Origin: Micromonospora luteifusca
GTDB taxonomy: Bacteria > Actinomycetota > Actinomycetes > Mycobacteriales > Micromonosporaceae
DNA: 64,000 nt
Direction of reading: 5' to 3'
Assembly: GCF_016907275.1 (NCBI RefSeq)
Contig: NZ_JAFBBP010000001.1
Location: 1,612,001-1,676,000, forward strand
Numbering within the stretch: position 1 is the first letter of the stretch; each line of letters opens with the position of its first letter. The notes beneath the pieces were generated by a model. It ran no database searches. It worked only from the letters and a program-made list of their open reading frames with translations, and was not told the origin of the DNA. Below are positions 28,358-36,677 of this stretch, piece after piece. The position numbers were made by a program, and so were the translations under genes.

Positions 28358-31225
28358 TCAGATCAGCCGCAACTCGCGCGCCCGCCGGACCGCTTCGCGC
28401 CGGCGGGTCGCGTCGAGTTTGCGGTAGATGTTGCGAACGTGGGTCTTCACCGTGTTGACCGAGAGGGACAGCTCGGTGGCGATCTCCACGTTGGACAGGA
28501 TGCTCTGCAGGTAGCGCAGGATCGTCAACTCCCGCTCGGTGAGCGGCTCGTCGAGCGTGCCCCCAGGCTCGGCCGCCGCCCGGGCGGTGCTCCTTCCGGA
28601 CCCCCGGACCAGGTCGCTGACCAGCGCGAAGTGCGCGGTGCCCGCGTCCAGGTGTGCGGCCAGCAGAGCCCGGACGGCCGGTTCGGCGCGGGTGAACACC
28701 CGTCGGCAGCCCTGCGGGCCAGCCAGATCCAGCACCTGTTCCAGGATCCGACCTGCCCGACGCCCGTCCCCGGCCTGCTCGGCCAGCACCGCGTCGAGCA
28801 GGCCCGCGTCCAGGCGTACCGGCAGGGGCCAGGCGGTGGCCGCTGGCGCCTGCCAGGCCGGCAGGGCCCGCCCGGTGGCAGCGGCGTCGCCAGCCAGCAG
28901 TTCCACCTTGGCCAGGGCCACCGCGAGCGCCGGCTCGGTCTCGTCGACGGCGGTGTTCCCCAGCAACTCGCGGGCGGCGCTCAGGTCGCCCCGTTCAGCA
29001 CGCAGTTCGGCCTCGGCGGCCCGCAGCAACCCGGCCAACTCGGCGGCGGACGGCCGGGTGACCAGCGCTTCCCGGGCCTGGACGAGCAGGCGTTGGCCGG
29101 CCGCCGGGTCACCGGAGTCGCGGTGCAACTGCGCCTGGCACAGTGCGGCCACCGCCGCCGCGACCGGTTCGCCGGAGGCGGCGGCAAGCCAGCCGTCTCC
29201 CGTAGCCGCCTCGGAGCTACCGACCCAGCCGGTGGCGACACCGAGCGCCGGGCCGGCGAGGGCGAGATTCGCCCCGGCCTCCTCGGGCTGGTCGCGCAGC
29301 AGTCCCACCAGGGCCAAGGCCAGGTACGCGTAGGCGCAGTCGAGCCGGCAGGACCAGCCCCGACACGGCGGCATGCCCAGCGCGTCCCGAGCCGCCTGCT
29401 CGGCCGCTCGCAGCTCACCGCGCACTGCGAGCAGCAGCGCGGCGCGGCTGGCGCCGACCAGCTCCGTACGCGGCCGGCCGGCTTCCCGGGCCGCCGCCCG
29501 GGCCCGAACGAAGCGGGCGGTCGGTAGCGCGCCCTCGGCCAACTCGACCAGCCCCAGCGCGGTGCCGGTGAACGCCCGCAGGTCCGCGTCATCGGCGGCA
29601 CCGCCCCCGCCGGCCGTCGGAGCGGAACCGGTTGCCCCGGGCGGCGCGGAGTCCGGCACTCGGGTCGGCGTGGCACCTGCCGGGCGGGTGCGCAGCAGCC
29701 GGGCGGCGGCGGCCCGGGCCTCCGCCGGGTCGTCGGCGAGCCGGGCCATGGTCAGCTCCAGCGCGGTGACCAACCGCAGGAACCGGTCCCGGCGTGGCAC
29801 CGGCAGGCCCGTGGCGTGCCCGGCGGCGGCGTGGAGGTGGCTGGTGGCGGCCGGGAGATCGCCGGCGTACGCACGCTCGGCGGCGAGAGCCAACGCCACC
29901 TCCGGGTCGGCGCGGATCACCTCCGTCGGCGGGGACGCGGGTGTCGAGGCGTGCACCGGATCGCGGTCGTACCGGGTCAGCTCCGGCCAGTGCGCGACGA
30001 ACAGGTCGCCGGCCAGGTCCCACCGGCCGGCGGCGAGCGCGTGCCGCAGACCGTCGGTCGGCCGGCCGGCGCCCGCGTACCAATCGGCGGCCCGTTCGTG
30101 CAGCTCGCGCAGCTCGTGACCGGGCAGCCGGGCCAGGTCGGCGCGGAGCAGGTCGGCGAGCAGGGGCTCGCAGCGGTACCAGGGCGGGCGGGTGTCCTCC
30201 CGGTGCAGCAGGCCACCGGCCCGGGCCAGGTCGGCGAGCGCCTGCCCGGCGTCGGCGCGACCGGTCAGCGCCTCGGCCAGGCCGGCGCAGACGTTCTCGA
30301 CCAGGGCGGTACGGCGCAACAGATCCACCTCGGTCGGGTCGAGCGTCGCGAGGACCTCCTCGTGCAGGTACCCGGCGATCTCCGGTTGGTCACCACCGAA
30401 CTGCCCCACCCAGCGCTCCGGGTCGGGCTGTCCGCGCACCGCCAGGGCGGCGATGCGCAGCGCGGCCGGCCAGCCGCCGGTGCGCTCACGCAGTCGGTGC
30501 ACGGCGACCGCCGGCAGGGCCGCGCCGTGCGCGGTGAGCAGGTCTGCCACCTCGTCGTCGGTGAACGCCAGATCGTCCGCACCGATCTCGGTCAGCTCGC
30601 CGGTGAGGCGAAGCCGGTGCAGGGGCAGGTGCAGCCCGGCCCGTGCCCCGATCACCAGGCGGAGCCGCTGCCCGGCATGCCGCAGCAGGAACTCCAAGCC
30701 GCTCAGCGCCGCCGGGTCCGCGACCCGGTGCAGGTCGTCCAGGATCAGCAGCACCGGCTGGTCCGCGTCGGCGAGTGTGGCGGCCAGCAGCTCCAACTGG
30801 TCGGGACGCGGCGGGCGGTCGGGCACCGGGCCACCCTCCGTCGACCCGGTCGCCGAGCGCAGTGCCGCCGCGAGGTACGCCCAGAGCCGATCCCCGTCGT
30901 CGCCGACCTCCACCGACACCCAGGCCGAGACCGGGCTGGCCTCGGGCTCGGCCGGCAGTTGGCCGGAGTCGGGCACGATCGCGCCCGGCTCGACCTCGGG
31001 CGAACCGCCGGCCAGTCGCACCCAGTTGGCGAGCAACGTGGTCTTGCCCCAGCCAGCGGGGGCGGCGACCAGGGTGACCGGTCCCGCACTCGCCTCGTCC
31101 AACCGGCGCAGCAGTCGGGGCCGGGCCACCACCGGCTCCGGCGGCACGGCCGGCGTCAGCCGGGACGCCAGCAGTGGCGACTCCACCGCCGTGTCGGCCC
31201 GTACGCGATTCTGCTGCGCTGGCAC
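28358..31225 (-). CDS. Large ATP-binding LuxR (LAL/MalT-like) regulator
   Basis: 955 residues, GTG start. Walker A VAAPAGWGKTTLLANW (about 54-69), Walker B VLLILDDLHRVAD, a STAND-type NTPase region, then about 450 residues of helical TPR-like repeats and a C-terminal LuxR helix-turn-helix: LTERELTILRYLQSILSNVE, IATELSLSVNTVKTHVRNIY. The size and architecture match MalT and LAL regulators, which bind an inducer and ATP before multimerising on DNA. The target is unknown; amylase lies 14 kb away. It is convergent with the redox pair and divergent from the gene at 31361. Confidence 0.9.
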   Translation of the reverse strand: MPAQQNRVRADTAVESPLLASRLTPAVPPEPVVARPRLLRRLDEASAGPVTLVAAPAGWGKTTLLANWVRLAGGSPEVEPGAIVPDSGQLPAEPEASPVSAWVSVEVGDDGDRLWAYLAAALRSATGSTEGGPVPDRPPRPDQLELLAATLADADQPVLLILDDLHRVADPAALSGLEFLLRHAGQRLRLVIGARAGLHLPLHRLRLTGELTEIGADDLAFTDDEVADLLTAHGAALPAVAVHRLRERTGGWPAALRIAALAVRGQPDPERWVGQFGGDQPEIAGYLHEEVLATLDPTEVDLLRRTALVENVCAGLAEALTGRADAGQALADLARAGGLLHREDTRPPWYRCEPLLADLLRADLARLPGHELRELHERAADWYAGAGRPTDGLRHALAAGRWDLAGDLFVAHWPELTRYDRDPVHASTPASPPTEVIRADPEVALALAAERAYAGDLPAATSHLHAAAGHATGLPVPRRDRFLRLVTALELTMARLADDPAEARAAAARLLRTRPAGATPTRVPDSAPPGATGSAPTAGGGGAADDADLRAFTGTALGLVELAEGALPTARFVRARAAAREAGRPRTELVGASRAALLLAVRGELRAAEQAARDALGMPPCRGWSCRLDCAYAYLALALVGLLRDQPEEAGANLALAGPALGVATGWVGSSEAATGDGWLAAASGEPVAAAVAALCQAQLHRDSGDPAAGQRLLVQAREALVTRPSAAELAGLLRAAEAELRAERGDLSAARELLGNTAVDETEPALAVALAKVELLAGDAAATGRALPAWQAPAATAWPLPVRLDAGLLDAVLAEQAGDGRRAGRILEQVLDLAGPQGCRRVFTRAEPAVRALLAAHLDAGTAHFALVSDLVRGSGRSTARAAAEPGGTLDEPLTERELTILRYLQSILSNVEIATELSLSVNTVKTHVRNIYRKLDATRRREAVRRARELRLI

Positions 31226-33002: not shown

Positions 33003-34187
33003 ATGGCTGGGGAGCGAACGTACGACGTGGTGCTGTTCGGAGCGACCGGGTTCACCGGAGGCCTGACCGCCGAATACCTGGCCCGACACGCGCCGGCCCG
33101 GCTGCGCTGGGCGCTGGCCGGCCGCAACCCGGACCGTCTCGCCGCCGTACGGAGTCGGCTGACCTCGATCGATCCGGCGCTGGTCGACCTGCCACTGCTC
33201 ACCGCCGACGTGACCGACGCCGATTCGCTGCACGCGGTGGCGGAGTCCGCCCGGGTGGTGGCCAGCACGGTCGGTCCGTACGTCCACCACGGCGAGCCGC
33301 TGGTCGCGGCGTGCGCCCGGGCCGGCACCGACTATCTGGACATCACCGGCGAGCCGGAGTTCGTCGACCTGATGTACGTGCGCCACCACGCCGAGGCGAC
33401 CCGCACCGGCGCACGGCTGGTGCACGCCTGCGGGTTCGACTCCATCCCGCACGACCTGGGCGTCTGGTTCACCATCAAGCAACTGCCCGCCGACGTCCCG
33501 ATCACCGTGGACGGCTACGTGCGCGCCGGTGGCCGGTTCTCCGCCGGCACCTACCATTCGGCGCTCACCGCGTTCTCTCGTACCGGGCAGGCCAGCCAGG
33601 CGGCCCGGGAGCGTCGGGCGGTCGAATCGCGCCCCACCGACCGCCGGGTCCGCGCGGTGCCCGGGCGGCTGGCCCGCTCCGCCGAGCTGGGCATCTGGAC
33701 CGTGCCCCTGCCGACCATCGACCCGCAGGTGATCCGTCGCTCGGCGGCGGCCCGACCGGAGTACGGCCCGGACTTCCGCTACCGGCACTTCGCCGCCGTG
33801 AAGCGGCTGCCCACTCTGCTGGTCGGCGCGTTCGGCCTCGGCGCGCTGATCGGGCTGGTGAAGCTGCCGCCCAGCCGACGCTGGCTGCTCGGTCGACTCG
33901 CCTCCGGGCAGGGGCCCACCCCCGAGCAGCGGGCAACGTCCTGGTTCCGGGTCCGGTTCGTCGGCACCGGCGGCGGGCAGCGGGTGGTCACCGAGGTGGC
34001 CGGCGGCGACCCGGGGTACGACGAGACGGCGAAGATGCTCGCCGAGTCGGCGCTCTGCCTGGCGTTCGACGACCTGCCGCCGACCGCCGGGCAGCTCACC
34101 CCGGTCACCGCGATGGGTGATGCGCTGCTCGACCGGCTCGTCCGGGCCGGCCTCACCTTCCGTGTGCTGAAGCAGGGCTCGGCTTGA
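33003..34187 (+). CDS. Saccharopine dehydrogenase-like / trans-acting enoyl reductase family protein
   Basis: 394 residues. Rossmann start YDVVLFGATGFTGGLTAEYL, followed by WALAGRNPDRL and GEPEFVDLMYVRHHAEA, typical of the saccharopine-dehydrogenase-like family that includes mycobacterial trans-acting enoyl reductases of lipid synthesis. A hydrophobic stretch LLVGAFGLGALIGLVKLP (about 270-288) could be membrane-associated, as in those proteins. Acts probably on a lipid or ketone substrate. No SD is visible; CAGACT ends 7 bases before the ATG, so the mRNA may be leaderless. Confidence 0.85.
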   Translation: MAGERTYDVVLFGATGFTGGLTAEYLARHAPARLRWALAGRNPDRLAAVRSRLTSIDPALVDLPLLTADVTDADSLHAVAESARVVASTVGPYVHHGEPLVAACARAGTDYLDITGEPEFVDLMYVRHHAEATRTGARLVHACGFDSIPHDLGVWFTIKQLPADVPITVDGYVRAGGRFSAGTYHSALTAFSRTGQASQAARERRAVESRPTDRRVRAVPGRLARSAELGIWTVPLPTIDPQVIRRSAAARPEYGPDFRYRHFAAVKRLPTLLVGAFGLGALIGLVKLPPSRRWLLGRLASGQGPTPEQRATSWFRVRFVGTGGGQRVVTEVAGGDPGYDETAKMLAESALCLAFDDLPPTAGQLTPVTAMGDALLDRLVRAGLTFRVLKQGSA

Positions 34188-34212
34188 CCCTCAACCGGGT
34201 CGAGGGGGCAGG

Positions 34213-35295
34213 ATGCCCAGCGTGAGTGACCTGCACAGCATCGGCGAGCTGGCCCGGGCCAGCGGCCTGACCGTCAGCGCGCTGCGCTTCTACGACTCGG
34301 CGGGGGTGCTGGAGCCGGCCCTGGTCGACCCGGTGACCGGTTACCGCTGGTACACCGACGAGCAGATCACCCCGGCCCGGCTGGTAGCCGGGCTACGCCG
34401 GATCGGCATGCCGGTGCCGGAGATCGCCGCCGCGGTACGCGCCGACCCGGCGGCGGTGCACCAACTGCTCGACACGCACCTGCGGCGGCTGGCGGACGGG
34501 CTCACCGACGCCCGTCGTGAGGTCACCCGGCTCCGGGCCCTGGTGGATCCGGCCCGGCCCGTCACCACCATGCTGCTGCTCTCCCCCGCCGGCCTGGCCG
34601 CCGCGTTGGACGCGGTGCGTTTCGCCGTCGGCACCGACCCGGAGCTGCCGATGCTCTCCGGCGTGCTGCTCGACGTGGAGCCCGACGCCGTCCGGCTCGT
34701 CGCCACCGACCGGCACCGGCTCGCGCTGGCTCGGGCCGAGGCGGACGTCGACGGTCCGCCGGTGCGGGTGTTCGTTCCCGTGGCCCTCGTCGACGAACTC
34801 CGCGCACTGCTCGACGCCGCCGACCCCCGGCCGGTACGGCTGACCGTGGCGGGCACGGACCTGCGGGTGCTGGTGGCCGGCCGGACGCTGACCGGCACCG
34901 CCCTGCCGTACGACTTCCCGGACTACCGTCGGCTGCTGCGCGACGCCGTCGGCGAGCGGCCGGACGCTCGCCGGATCCCGGTGGACGTGGCCGCGCTGAG
35001 CGCCGCGCTGGCCGACCCGGCGGCTCCCACGGTCGCCCGTGAGTACGGGGGCAGGCCGCTGGCGGTCACCGTGCTCGGCCTCGACGACCAGGGCAGCCTG
35101 TGCCTGCTCCCCGCCACGGAGCTGACCTCCGACGAACTGCGGATCGGGGTCGACGGTGGATATCTGCTGGACGCGTTGAACGCGGCCGGCGCACCTCAGC
35201 TGGTGTTGGAACTGGACGGGCCGATCGCCCCGCTGGCCGTACGCCGCCCGGATGACGCGGAGACCTACTCCGTGCTGATGCCGATCCGGCTCTGA
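34213..35295 (+). CDS. MerR helix-turn-helix fused to a DNA sliding clamp (beta)-like region
   Basis: 360 residues with SD GAGGGGG. Residues 7-75 are a MerR-type winged helix: SIGELARASGLTVSALRFYD and GYRWYTDEQI. A coiled coil (about 78-112) follows. From about 117 the protein looks like domains II and III of DNA polymerase III beta: PMLSGVLLDVEPDAVRLVAT then DRHRLALARA, YDFPDYRRLL, YLLDALNAAG, and a C-terminus ending VLMPIRL that matches the MPMRL tail lining the peptide pocket of true clamps. Domain I is missing. The fold assignment is by motif; the function (clamp-ligand-responsive regulator?) is unproven. It lies just before serS. Confidence 0.85.
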   Translation: MPSVSDLHSIGELARASGLTVSALRFYDSAGVLEPALVDPVTGYRWYTDEQITPARLVAGLRRIGMPVPEIAAAVRADPAAVHQLLDTHLRRLADGLTDARREVTRLRALVDPARPVTTMLLLSPAGLAAALDAVRFAVGTDPELPMLSGVLLDVEPDAVRLVATDRHRLALARAEADVDGPPVRVFVPVALVDELRALLDAADPRPVRLTVAGTDLRVLVAGRTLTGTALPYDFPDYRRLLRDAVGERPDARRIPVDVAALSAALADPAAPTVAREYGGRPLAVTVLGLDDQGSLCLLPATELTSDELRIGVDGGYLLDALNAAGAPQLVLELDGPIAPLAVRRPDDAETYSVLMPIRL

Positions 35296-35387
35296 ACCCG
35301 GCCATCGCTCCCCGCCCCGGGCCGACGGGGCCGCGACGGTAGCATCTGGTGGTCCACCTGACCCCGGACGGAGGCAGACGGAGCAGC

Positions 35388-36677
35388 ATGCTCGACATGG
35401 AGTTGATCCGGAAGGATCGCGAGGCGGTGGCGACCGCGCTGGCGAAGCGTCTGGATCCCGCCGAGGTCACCCGTGCCCTGGACGAGATCCAGCGGCTCGA
35501 CCAGGAACGACGCAACCTGATCACCGAGATCGACGCCGAGCGGCAGCGCCGCAAGGCGGAGGCCCGGGCGTACGCGCAGGCGAAACGTGCCGGCGAGGAG
35601 CCACAGGCCAGTGCGCCGGAGGCTGAGCGTAAGCAACTCGCCGAGCTGGAGTCCCAGCTGGACGAGGTGCAGTCCCGACTGCGTACGGCGATGAGTGAGC
35701 TGCCCAACCTGCCTGCCGACGACGTGGTGGCCGGCGGCAAGGAAGCCAACCGGGTGGTCAAGACCTTCGGAGCGCCACCGGCGATCGAGAAGGTCCGCGA
35801 CCACGTGGAGCTGAGCCGCTCGCTGGGCCTCGTCGACTACGAGCGCGGGGTCAAGCTCGGTGGGTCCGGTTTCTGGATCTACACGGGAGTCGGCGCCCGG
35901 CTGGAGTGGGCGCTGCTCAACTACTTCATCGACCAGCACGTCAGGGCCGGGTACGAATTCCTCCTCCCGCCGCACCTGCTGCTCGACACGGCCGGCTTCG
36001 CCGCCGGGCAGTTCCCCAAGTTCTACGACGACGTCTACCACCTGGACTCCGAATCCGCGCCGCGCGGCCAGTTCCTGCTGCCCACGTCGGAGACGGCGAT
36101 CCTCGGCGCCTACCAGGACGAGATCCTGGAGACCCCGAAGCTGCCGCTGAAGGCATTCGCGTACACCCCGTGCTACCGGCGGGAGTCGGCCGGTTCGCAC
36201 TCGGACGAGCGCGGCACGGTGCGGGGGCACCAGTTCAACAAGGTGGAGATCTTCCAGTTCACCCTGCCGGAACAGGCCGACACGGCACTGGAGGAGATGC
36301 TCGCCCACGCGGAGAGCCTGGTCGAGGGGCTGGGCCTGCACTACCAGCGCACCCTGCTCTCGGCCGGCGACGCCAGCGCCTCGATGAAGAAGACCCTCGA
36401 CATCGAGGTGTGGATGCCGAGCACCGGCAAGTACAAGGAGGTGTCATCGGTCTCCTGGGCCGGTGACTACCAGGCCCGGCGGGCGGCGATCCGCTACCGC
36501 GAGCCCGGTGCCAAGCAGACGCGCTTCGTGCACACCCTCAACGGCTCGGCGCTGGCCACGAGCCGGCTCTTCCCGGCGATCCTGGAGCAGTACCAGCAGG
36601 CCGACGGCAGTGTCCTGATCCCCGAGGTCCTCCAGGACCGCCTGGGCACCGACCGCCTGACCCCTCGCGCTAGCTAG
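35388..36677 (+). CDS. serS: Seryl-tRNA synthetase
   Basis: Class II synthetase charging tRNA-Ser (and tRNA-Sec where present). 429 residues from ATG 35388, with an N-terminal coiled-coil arm (about 25-105). Motif 2 appears as AYTPCYRRESAGSHSDERGT and motif 3 as FVHTLNGSALATSRLFPAIL. The distinctive KEVSSVSWAGDYQARRAAIR segment is the serine/ATP pocket region. Weak SD GGAG. A TAGCAT hexamer at 35340-35345 may be its -10. A perfect hairpin ends the transcript. Confidence 0.95.
   Translation: MLDMELIRKDREAVATALAKRLDPAEVTRALDEIQRLDQERRNLITEIDAERQRRKAEARAYAQAKRAGEEPQASAPEAERKQLAELESQLDEVQSRLRTAMSELPNLPADDVVAGGKEANRVVKTFGAPPAIEKVRDHVELSRSLGLVDYERGVKLGGSGFWIYTGVGARLEWALLNYFIDQHVRAGYEFLLPPHLLLDTAGFAAGQFPKFYDDVYHLDSESAPRGQFLLPTSETAILGAYQDEILETPKLPLKAFAYTPCYRRESAGSHSDERGTVRGHQFNKVEIFQFTLPEQADTALEEMLAHAESLVEGLGLHYQRTLLSAGDASASMKKTLDIEVWMPSTGKYKEVSSVSWAGDYQARRAAIRYREPGAKQTRFVHTLNGSALATSRLFPAILEQYQQADGSVLIPEVLQDRLGTDRLTPRAS

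Follow-up and report, generated by a model that had tools for sequence, protein, structure and literature searches.

A MerR-type regulator carrying sliding-clamp domains in Micromonospora: a candidate TipA-like sensor whose ligand domain may mimic a drug target

Background

The TipA-class regulators (TipAL/TipAS and SkgA) place a C-terminal ligand domain behind a MerR DNA-binding domain, and the BmrR/Mta-type regulators, in which the ligand domain of BmrR is of a different type from the sensor domain described below, have exporter-type genes behind their operators. In BlaR1 and MecR1 the sensor domain resembles the target of the drug, and the response proceeds by membrane signalling. For tipA, a single autoregulated gene with two translation products is described as sensor, activator and drug neutraliser (PMC7762955, in excerpt). 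A second, defence-linked copy of a drug target is provided by GriR and MypR, which are encoded by extra dnaN genes in the griselimycin and mycoplanecin clusters; the pocket of DnaN is the target of these two actinomycete DnaN inhibitors (PMC10817943, in excerpt).

The gene considered here lies in a window of 64,000 nucleotides (the whole stretch of DNA that was analysed) from Micromonospora luteifusca. Like the TipA class it joins a MerR DNA-binding domain to a C-terminal ligand domain, but this domain has the sliding-clamp fold where that of TipA has the TipAS fold, and its binding of a drug is putative. As in the BmrR/Mta type, exporter-type genes stand behind the (predicted) operator, but here the sensor domain is akin to a protein known as a target of antibiotics. 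Fold and ligand pocket are shared with domains II and III of DnaN, although domain I and, as judged by alignment, the dimer-interface segment are missing, and the clamp part is joined to a MerR domain. Whereas GriR and MypR are products of DnaN-encoding genes in drug clusters, the fusion carries a partial clamp (domains II-III only) within a regulator, and whereas BlaR1 and MecR1 work by membrane signalling, the fusion, for which a similar likeness of sensor to drug target is proposed, is a one-component DNA-binding protein. By analogy, the arrangement can be described as MerR/TipA logic with a replication-clamp sensor. No functional study of a MerR-clamp fusion was found in the open literature (subscription papers fell mostly outside its scope), a search for target-mimic sensors gave only unrelated plant and RNA work among the matches listed, and we know of no earlier case of a replisome-target mimic acting as a transcriptional sensor.

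Domain layout and distribution

The fusion gene is called as an open reading frame at 34222..35295 on the forward strand, as are all features of the window given with coordinates below, and probably has a leaderless GTG start and 357 codons plus stop. The listed frame starts at ATG 34213 (the 360-aa numbering, used here for residues). Because that ATG sits within the -10 element of the promoter, and because relatives have a GTG about 7-10 nt after the -10, equivalent to GTG 34222 in the window, the true protein is probably one of 357 aa translated from a leaderless mRNA beginning at this GTG. Database entries of 360 aa probably share the ATG at 34213, inside the promoter -10.

The MerR winged-helix DNA-binding domain (34237..34440, residues 9-76) matches PF13411 at 4.8e-12 and PF00376 at 6.1e-10. 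It is followed by a long helix (34447..34545, residues 79-111 by DSSP of the predicted structure) that by analogy may form the MerR-type dimerisation coiled coil. Clamp domain II (34555..34923, residues 115-237) is matched by PF02767 over residues 126-237 and superposes from residue 115; domain III (34969..35292, about residues 253-360, with its border set by eye on the predicted structure) is supported by superposition and by TIGR00663, which extends to residue 360. By the same profile and superposition, domain I is absent from the fusion. There is no TipAS-type effector domain, residues 115-360 having the clamp fold by profile and superposition. A misreading of the domains, or their appearance by chance, was ruled out by profile, PDB and fold results, and the initial annotation was right in assigning a MerR winged helix to the N-terminus and clamp domains II and III to the remainder.

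The fusion architecture is already visible in databases. A protein search scored 7995 candidates, of which 1562 were relatives at E<=1e-3; in the best 120 of these, the named ones are nearly all from Micromonospora and are titled either MerR regulator or 'DNA polymerase III subunit beta family protein'. The subfamily is present in 58 of 61 Micromonospora genomes. Genome G015 carries a 34% identical relative in its place, and in G043 and G051 no fusion regulator was found in the search of the 61. Class-wide, at E<=1e-40, members occur in 31 of 394 genomes (the window's own included) and in 13 of 137 genera, a distribution that is patchy outside Micromonospora. With the G015 protein as query, 216 of 7997 scored candidates matched at E<=1e-10, and names among the 120 listed include Polymorphospora, Dactylosporangium, Kribbella, Nocardia and Saccharopolyspora. 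Twenty of the 30 class-level loci were parsed, 13 of them first-subfamily and 7 second-subfamily. The G015 gene itself (L355, G015:C2:249383-250817) is a divergent second-subfamily fusion, with a variant upstream site TTGACCTTCAGGTTGGTTGAGGGCTCAGGAT scoring 27.6. Locus L102, titled Bacillus sp. AZ43 (UNVERIFIED_ORG), is Blastococcus-like and probably misnamed. The alignment retained 95 rows after 15 short ones were dropped; the 92-row set omits the misframed L021, L025 and L030, and the 90-row set also L002 and L004 (the window itself). Row sets were not de-duplicated, and some genomes enter twice.

Clamp pocket and ring interface

Column mapping on the E. coli clamp places three pocket segments in the fusion: A-T-D-R-H-R-L (34702..34722, residues 164-170, E. 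coli 171-177), D-F-P-D-Y-R-R-L-L (34912..34938, residues 234-242, with E. coli P242, R246 and V247) and the C-terminal L-M-P-I-R-L (35275..35292, E. coli 361-366). The pocket was defined as 18 positions given in a clamp review (PMC11139829, in excerpt) and compared over 226 columns in 90 fusion rows, with the 59 of 61 Micromonospora DnaNs that were long enough as reference. Mean entropy is 0.51 in the pocket vs 1.25 over the 226 columns, and random sets of 18 columns are equally low at a frequency of 5e-5 (90 members). At 14 of the 18 pocket positions the majority residue is that of Micromonospora DnaN, vs 21% elsewhere. The positions of T172, R176, P242, M362, P363 and R365 are retained in 88-90 of the 90 rows, those of R176, M362 and P363 without exception; the C-terminal pocket, whose loss in homologs had been named as counting against a clamp-like role, is thus kept. 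Position 246 is Arg in 82 of the 90 fusion members vs Ser in all 59 DnaNs, and the pocket is therefore no plain copy of that of DnaN. Within the clamp portion, the ligand pocket is the conserved part.

These results bear on whether the protein might be a general multidrug MerR regulator, binding unrelated ligands elsewhere on the clamp fold in a BmrR-like manner, with the pocket inherited and unused. MerR multidrug regulators often drive pumps (PMC9909328, in excerpt), and MFS-type genes do lie behind the operator described below; however, conservation is higher in the pocket than outside it, host-clamp residues having been retained there while other positions drifted, and such a regulator would leave the site at oriC/dnaN unexplained. 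We consider it unlikely.

The substitutions I272A/L273A turn the E. coli clamp monomeric (PMC11139829, in excerpt). Judged by alignment only, all 90 fusion rows have a gap at each of these two columns, which belong to the dimer-interface face of domain III. The usual clamp-ring interface thus appears to be lost, in agreement with the earlier view that a protein without domain I could not be a usual ring subunit. Two residues of the Micromonospora clamp that presumably face DNA, R198 and K205, have mostly not been retained in fusion members.

Operator in the promoter of the fusion gene

A predicted MerR-type promoter/operator is located at 34184..34214 (0 mismatches, control 0; matrix score 47.1). 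It consists of a -35 element TTGACC (34184-34189), a 19-bp spacer (34190-34208) and a -10 element CAGGAT (34209-34214), with a spacer palindrome CCTCAACC-g-GGTCGAGG at 34189-34205, centred on 34197. The spacer length, with a palindrome within, is as in MerR promoters, for which 19-20 bp is given (PMC9909328, in excerpt). At <=5 mismatches the operator is found in 94 of 94 upstream stretches, including all 26 from outside Micromonospora. The self site precedes 58 of 58 Micromonospora members (50 by matrix, at 35.3-52.4, 7 more at 40.3-50.8, and G060 by a pattern match with 0 mismatches), so that an operator in its own promoter, and with it predicted autoregulation, is shared with the TipA class. 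The matrix was built from 56 distinct self sites (31.1-52.5) of Micromonospora and relatives, and self-site scores are not independent, because it was trained on self sites of the same genomes. Outside Micromonospora, where 19 of 21 loci were covered, each of the 19 genomes searched has exactly one match, the self-site sequence, and control matches were 0. All 13 parsed first-subfamily loci of the class carry the operator (scores 36.9-49.7); the 7 second-subfamily loci have as their best upstream hit a variant that starts with TTGACCTTCRRG and scores low (3.2-28.8). The predicted operator very probably controls its own promoter.

It is highly improbable that the operator serves a different MerR protein and recurs for reasons unrelated to the fusion gene. 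Other MerR proteins could have related half-sites, and G051 has sites with no regulator found, but the site stands directly upstream of the fusion gene in 94 of 94 rows from several genera, the best-scoring other MerR match listed for the window's genome (G000; 44% identical, at 7005926) is without such a site, and the two genomes in which the 31-nt pattern has no match, G015 and G043, are also without the subfamily.

Recurrence of the operator in Micromonospora

Allowing <=3 mismatches, the 31-nt pattern gives 146 matches in the 61 Micromonospora genomes, and the reversed pattern 0. The genes behind them, assigned by hand, comprise 58 self sites, 27 at dnaA-dnaN/oriC, 39 at MFS-type genes, 18 at TPR-like genes and 4 others; predicted sites beyond the self site, at oriC/dnaN and MFS-type genes, set the Micromonospora fusion apart from the TipA class. 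The MFS-type group is made up of 31 copies of an MFS protein (PF07690/PF05977 in the G000 copy) and 8 of a second MFS-like type, 5 of which were recognised by blastp kinship with the first and 3 by shared sequence only; the TPR-like group holds 14 copies of a protein of 158-188 aa, with a weak TPR match (0.002), and 4 likely kin. Most MFS and TPR-like genes have an ATG 6-8 nt past the -10, which the second MFS type does not. An ortholog of the MFS protein at >=66% identity is present in 32 genomes; the operator is directly upstream at <=3 mismatches in 30 of them and in weaker form in the other two (G016 and G021, scores 29.1 and 27.6). The four matches in G000 are the self site, one at the TPR-like gene (6905961, minus strand), one at the MFS gene (3234486, minus strand) and one at 989667.

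The last of these (G000:C1:989667) is one of three occurrences, in three genomes (L154, L162, L163), of a variant TTGACTCTCGACCCGGTCGAGGGC without a proper -10, and transposase-like genes were seen by eye near two of the three. At L277, L285 and L322, operator-like sites are followed by a similar stretch (CGTCG..CAGCCAGT) with no clear gene, possibly an RNA or another kind of promoter. In genome G051 the MFS and TPR-like genes have operator sites, and the one at oriC/dnaN is weak (25.7); no regulator was found in its 590 contigs, owing either to an assembly gap or to recent loss. A looser 22-nt pattern gave 107 matches vs 5 control matches in 41 relatives' genomes, and matched twice in G015; since it does match the control, single weak matches are no proof. 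Relatives outside Micromonospora show the self site only, and pump and dnaN are therefore no general targets.

The site beside oriC and dnaN

When the 1.1 kb before dnaN was searched with the weight matrix, 54 of 61 Micromonospora genomes showed a site scoring >=17, at -688 to -714 before dnaN and pointing to it; thirty-four reach 30 and sixteen reach 40, and the maximum in mononucleotide shuffles (20 per genome) was 9.4. The site is flanked by the end of dnaA on one side and by the first TTGTCCACA boxes, presumably DnaA boxes, on the other, and oriC intervenes between the predicted promoter and dnaN, about 690 bp away. Information is 1.42 bits per position within the site vs 0.35 upstream and 0.85 downstream, a comparison in which anchoring by the matrix favours the site. 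The window's own genome has a weak copy, at 19.1 vs 31.1-52.5 for the training self sites. No good site was found in G008 (7.2), G012, G013, G015, G025 (11.7), G040 and G043; G015 and G043 are without the subfamily, and the other five do hold the regulator, frameshifted in G040 (L350, G040:C411:16614-18092, near residue 205), where the oriC/dnaN site is not intact either (-12.2). A small ORF behind the oriC-side promoter, with a GTG/ATG in leaderless position, was considered and dropped, as its frames across the first TTGTCCACA box differ by eye between G000 and G050.

In 19 non-Micromonospora genomes with the regulator, none has the site in the 1.8 kb before dnaN (best score -11.7), and the contrast with 54 of 61 makes it a Micromonospora trait. 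A tie between gene control and replication had been raised as a possibility in the initial annotation, and it gains ground to this extent, because copies of the predicted operator stand next to oriC and dnaN in the genus, not in the 19 others. One form of such a tie would be a clamp homeostat. The domain would then sense the cell's own clamp-binding proteins or peptides, whether unengaged polymerase or repair partners or clamp-binding motifs set free when forks run into trouble, and would adjust transcription at dnaN and oriC, with MFS regulation secondary. The conserved pocket for clamp-binding motifs, the operator at oriC/dnaN in most of the genus and the near-core status of the regulator there (58 of 61) agree with this. 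Nevertheless, the 88 non-self matches at <=3 mismatches include 39 at MFS-type and 18 at TPR-like genes beside the 27 at oriC/dnaN, the site is missing from all 19 other genomes, and a patchy distribution outside Micromonospora would be odd for such a role, so that the homeostat is a doubtful though not negligible reading.

An internal start in relatives

Where the MerR part joins the clamp part, a Shine-Dalgarno core together with an ATG/GTG at one aligned codon is present in 58 of 92 rows, 34 have neither, and none has only one. All 26 non-Micromonospora rows have the internal start, as do 32 of the 64 from Micromonospora and 10 of 13 first-subfamily loci at class level; it is absent from L360 (the window) and from L369 and L370, which are non-Micromonospora. 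The flanking residues vary (RE, QE, LE, PE, EE) while GGAG or GAGG is constant, and the aligned column is the best of all, the next having 39 of 90 where 73 rows carry a start codon. In the window the aligned codon (34561..34563; rows L002 and L004) is GTC with no Shine-Dalgarno, and the internal start has therefore been lost in its clade. In relatives it would give a stand-alone clamp II-III product; most relatives carry TipA-like signals for a putative short ligand-domain product, which the window's clade does not. Genomes with and without the internal start differ in the strength of the oriC/dnaN site, with medians of 39.8 and 27.1 (p 0.005; 32 and 18 genomes, kinship ignored), a difference that we do not count as proof; beside these 50 genomes, 7 further ones are without the internal start, and G060 was not parsed.

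The protein could also act mainly as a decoy or poison clamp, which would compete for clamp-binding proteins, sequester them from DnaN and slow replication, and which its DNA binding would direct to the oriC region. The conserved pocket, the ring interface lost by alignment, the internal start as a possible source of free decoy and the Micromonospora site at the edge of oriC could all be accommodated, but wiring to pump-like genes and to the clamp gene is unexpected for a poison, the internal start has been lost in 32 of 64 Micromonospora rows, and no oriC site occurs in the 19 genomes from elsewhere. This reading appears quite improbable.

Neighbouring genes

Upstream of the fusion gene is a saccharopine-dehydrogenase-like gene (33003..34187; PF03435, 4.9e-11), the stop codon of which overlaps the operator -35 and the cluster of which is directly upstream in 58 of 96 loci. 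Downstream lies serS (35349..36677; TIGR00414, 1.2e-109), which could be co-transcribed with the fusion gene. Whether the gene always lies near serS had been posed as a check, and it does not: the synteny holds in Micromonospora and is not common to Streptomyces or Blastococcus. Streptomyces neighbours, as judged by eye, are varied (an antiporter-like gene, ABC-permease-like genes), and no functional link is drawn from so diverse a set; with the serS synteny confined to Micromonospora, function from gene neighbours was dropped. At two Streptomyces loci, L089 and L094, a gene for a UvrA-like ATPase adjoins the regulator (by eye). Elsewhere in the window, 28358-31225 on the minus strand encodes a LuxR-type regulator of 955 aa that contains an AAA ATPase domain (GerE 8.7e-16).

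Proposed mechanism

From the computed fold, pocket conservation, ring-interface loss (by alignment), operator with its recurrence and internal start signals, we propose that the protein is a TipA-like autoregulated sensor in which the ligand domain mimics a drug target, the sliding clamp. A MerR dimer would bind within the 19-bp spacer of the gene's own promoter. In Micromonospora it would do likewise at the promoters of MFS-type genes, at that of the small TPR-like gene and at one on the dnaA-side edge of oriC, the last of these directed through oriC to dnaN. Once the DnaN-like pocket of domains II and III is filled by a ligand that blocks the clamp, for which a peptide antibiotic akin to griselimycin or mycoplanecin is the likeliest candidate, the MerR part would distort the promoter and activate it. 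The output would be more sensor, more pump, with the MFS-type proteins exporting the ligand, and perhaps more clamp, if the oriC-side promoter feeds dnaN; in lineages with the internal start, stand-alone clamp II-III from the same mRNA would mop up ligand. The whole chain we hold to be somewhat on the probable side, and that the sensor uses its clamp copy as antibiotic bait, wired in Micromonospora to oriC, the clamp gene and efflux, with a sponge in most lineages, is in our judgement an evenly balanced proposition.

The proposed induction of the sensor by itself, the pump-like genes, the region of the clamp gene and the free clamp domain, taken together, are better explained by defence against a clamp-pocket ligand than by any single rival. 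Against a sensor reading is the window's own clade, which is without the internal start and has a weak oriC/dnaN site. The earlier interpretation holds up as to a MerR regulator with clamp domains II-III that would form no ring in the usual way and that keeps its pocket in homologs; its suggestion of a reader of host clamp partners is probably less apt than a sensor and sponge for small clamp blockers, which agrees better with the predicted targets (the gene itself, MFS-type genes and the dnaN region) and with an internal start for a free clamp domain.

Significance

New here are the operator, its recurrence, the internal start of relatives and the pocket as the conserved part of the clamp. 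If the proposal is true, bacteria detect clamp inhibitors with a decoy of their target, and such inhibitors would then be common in soil. The regulator would offer a ready biosensor for new clamp-binding antibiotics and an example of a MerR promoter that borders on oriC, and pump, target and sponge together would be the expected logic of self-defence.
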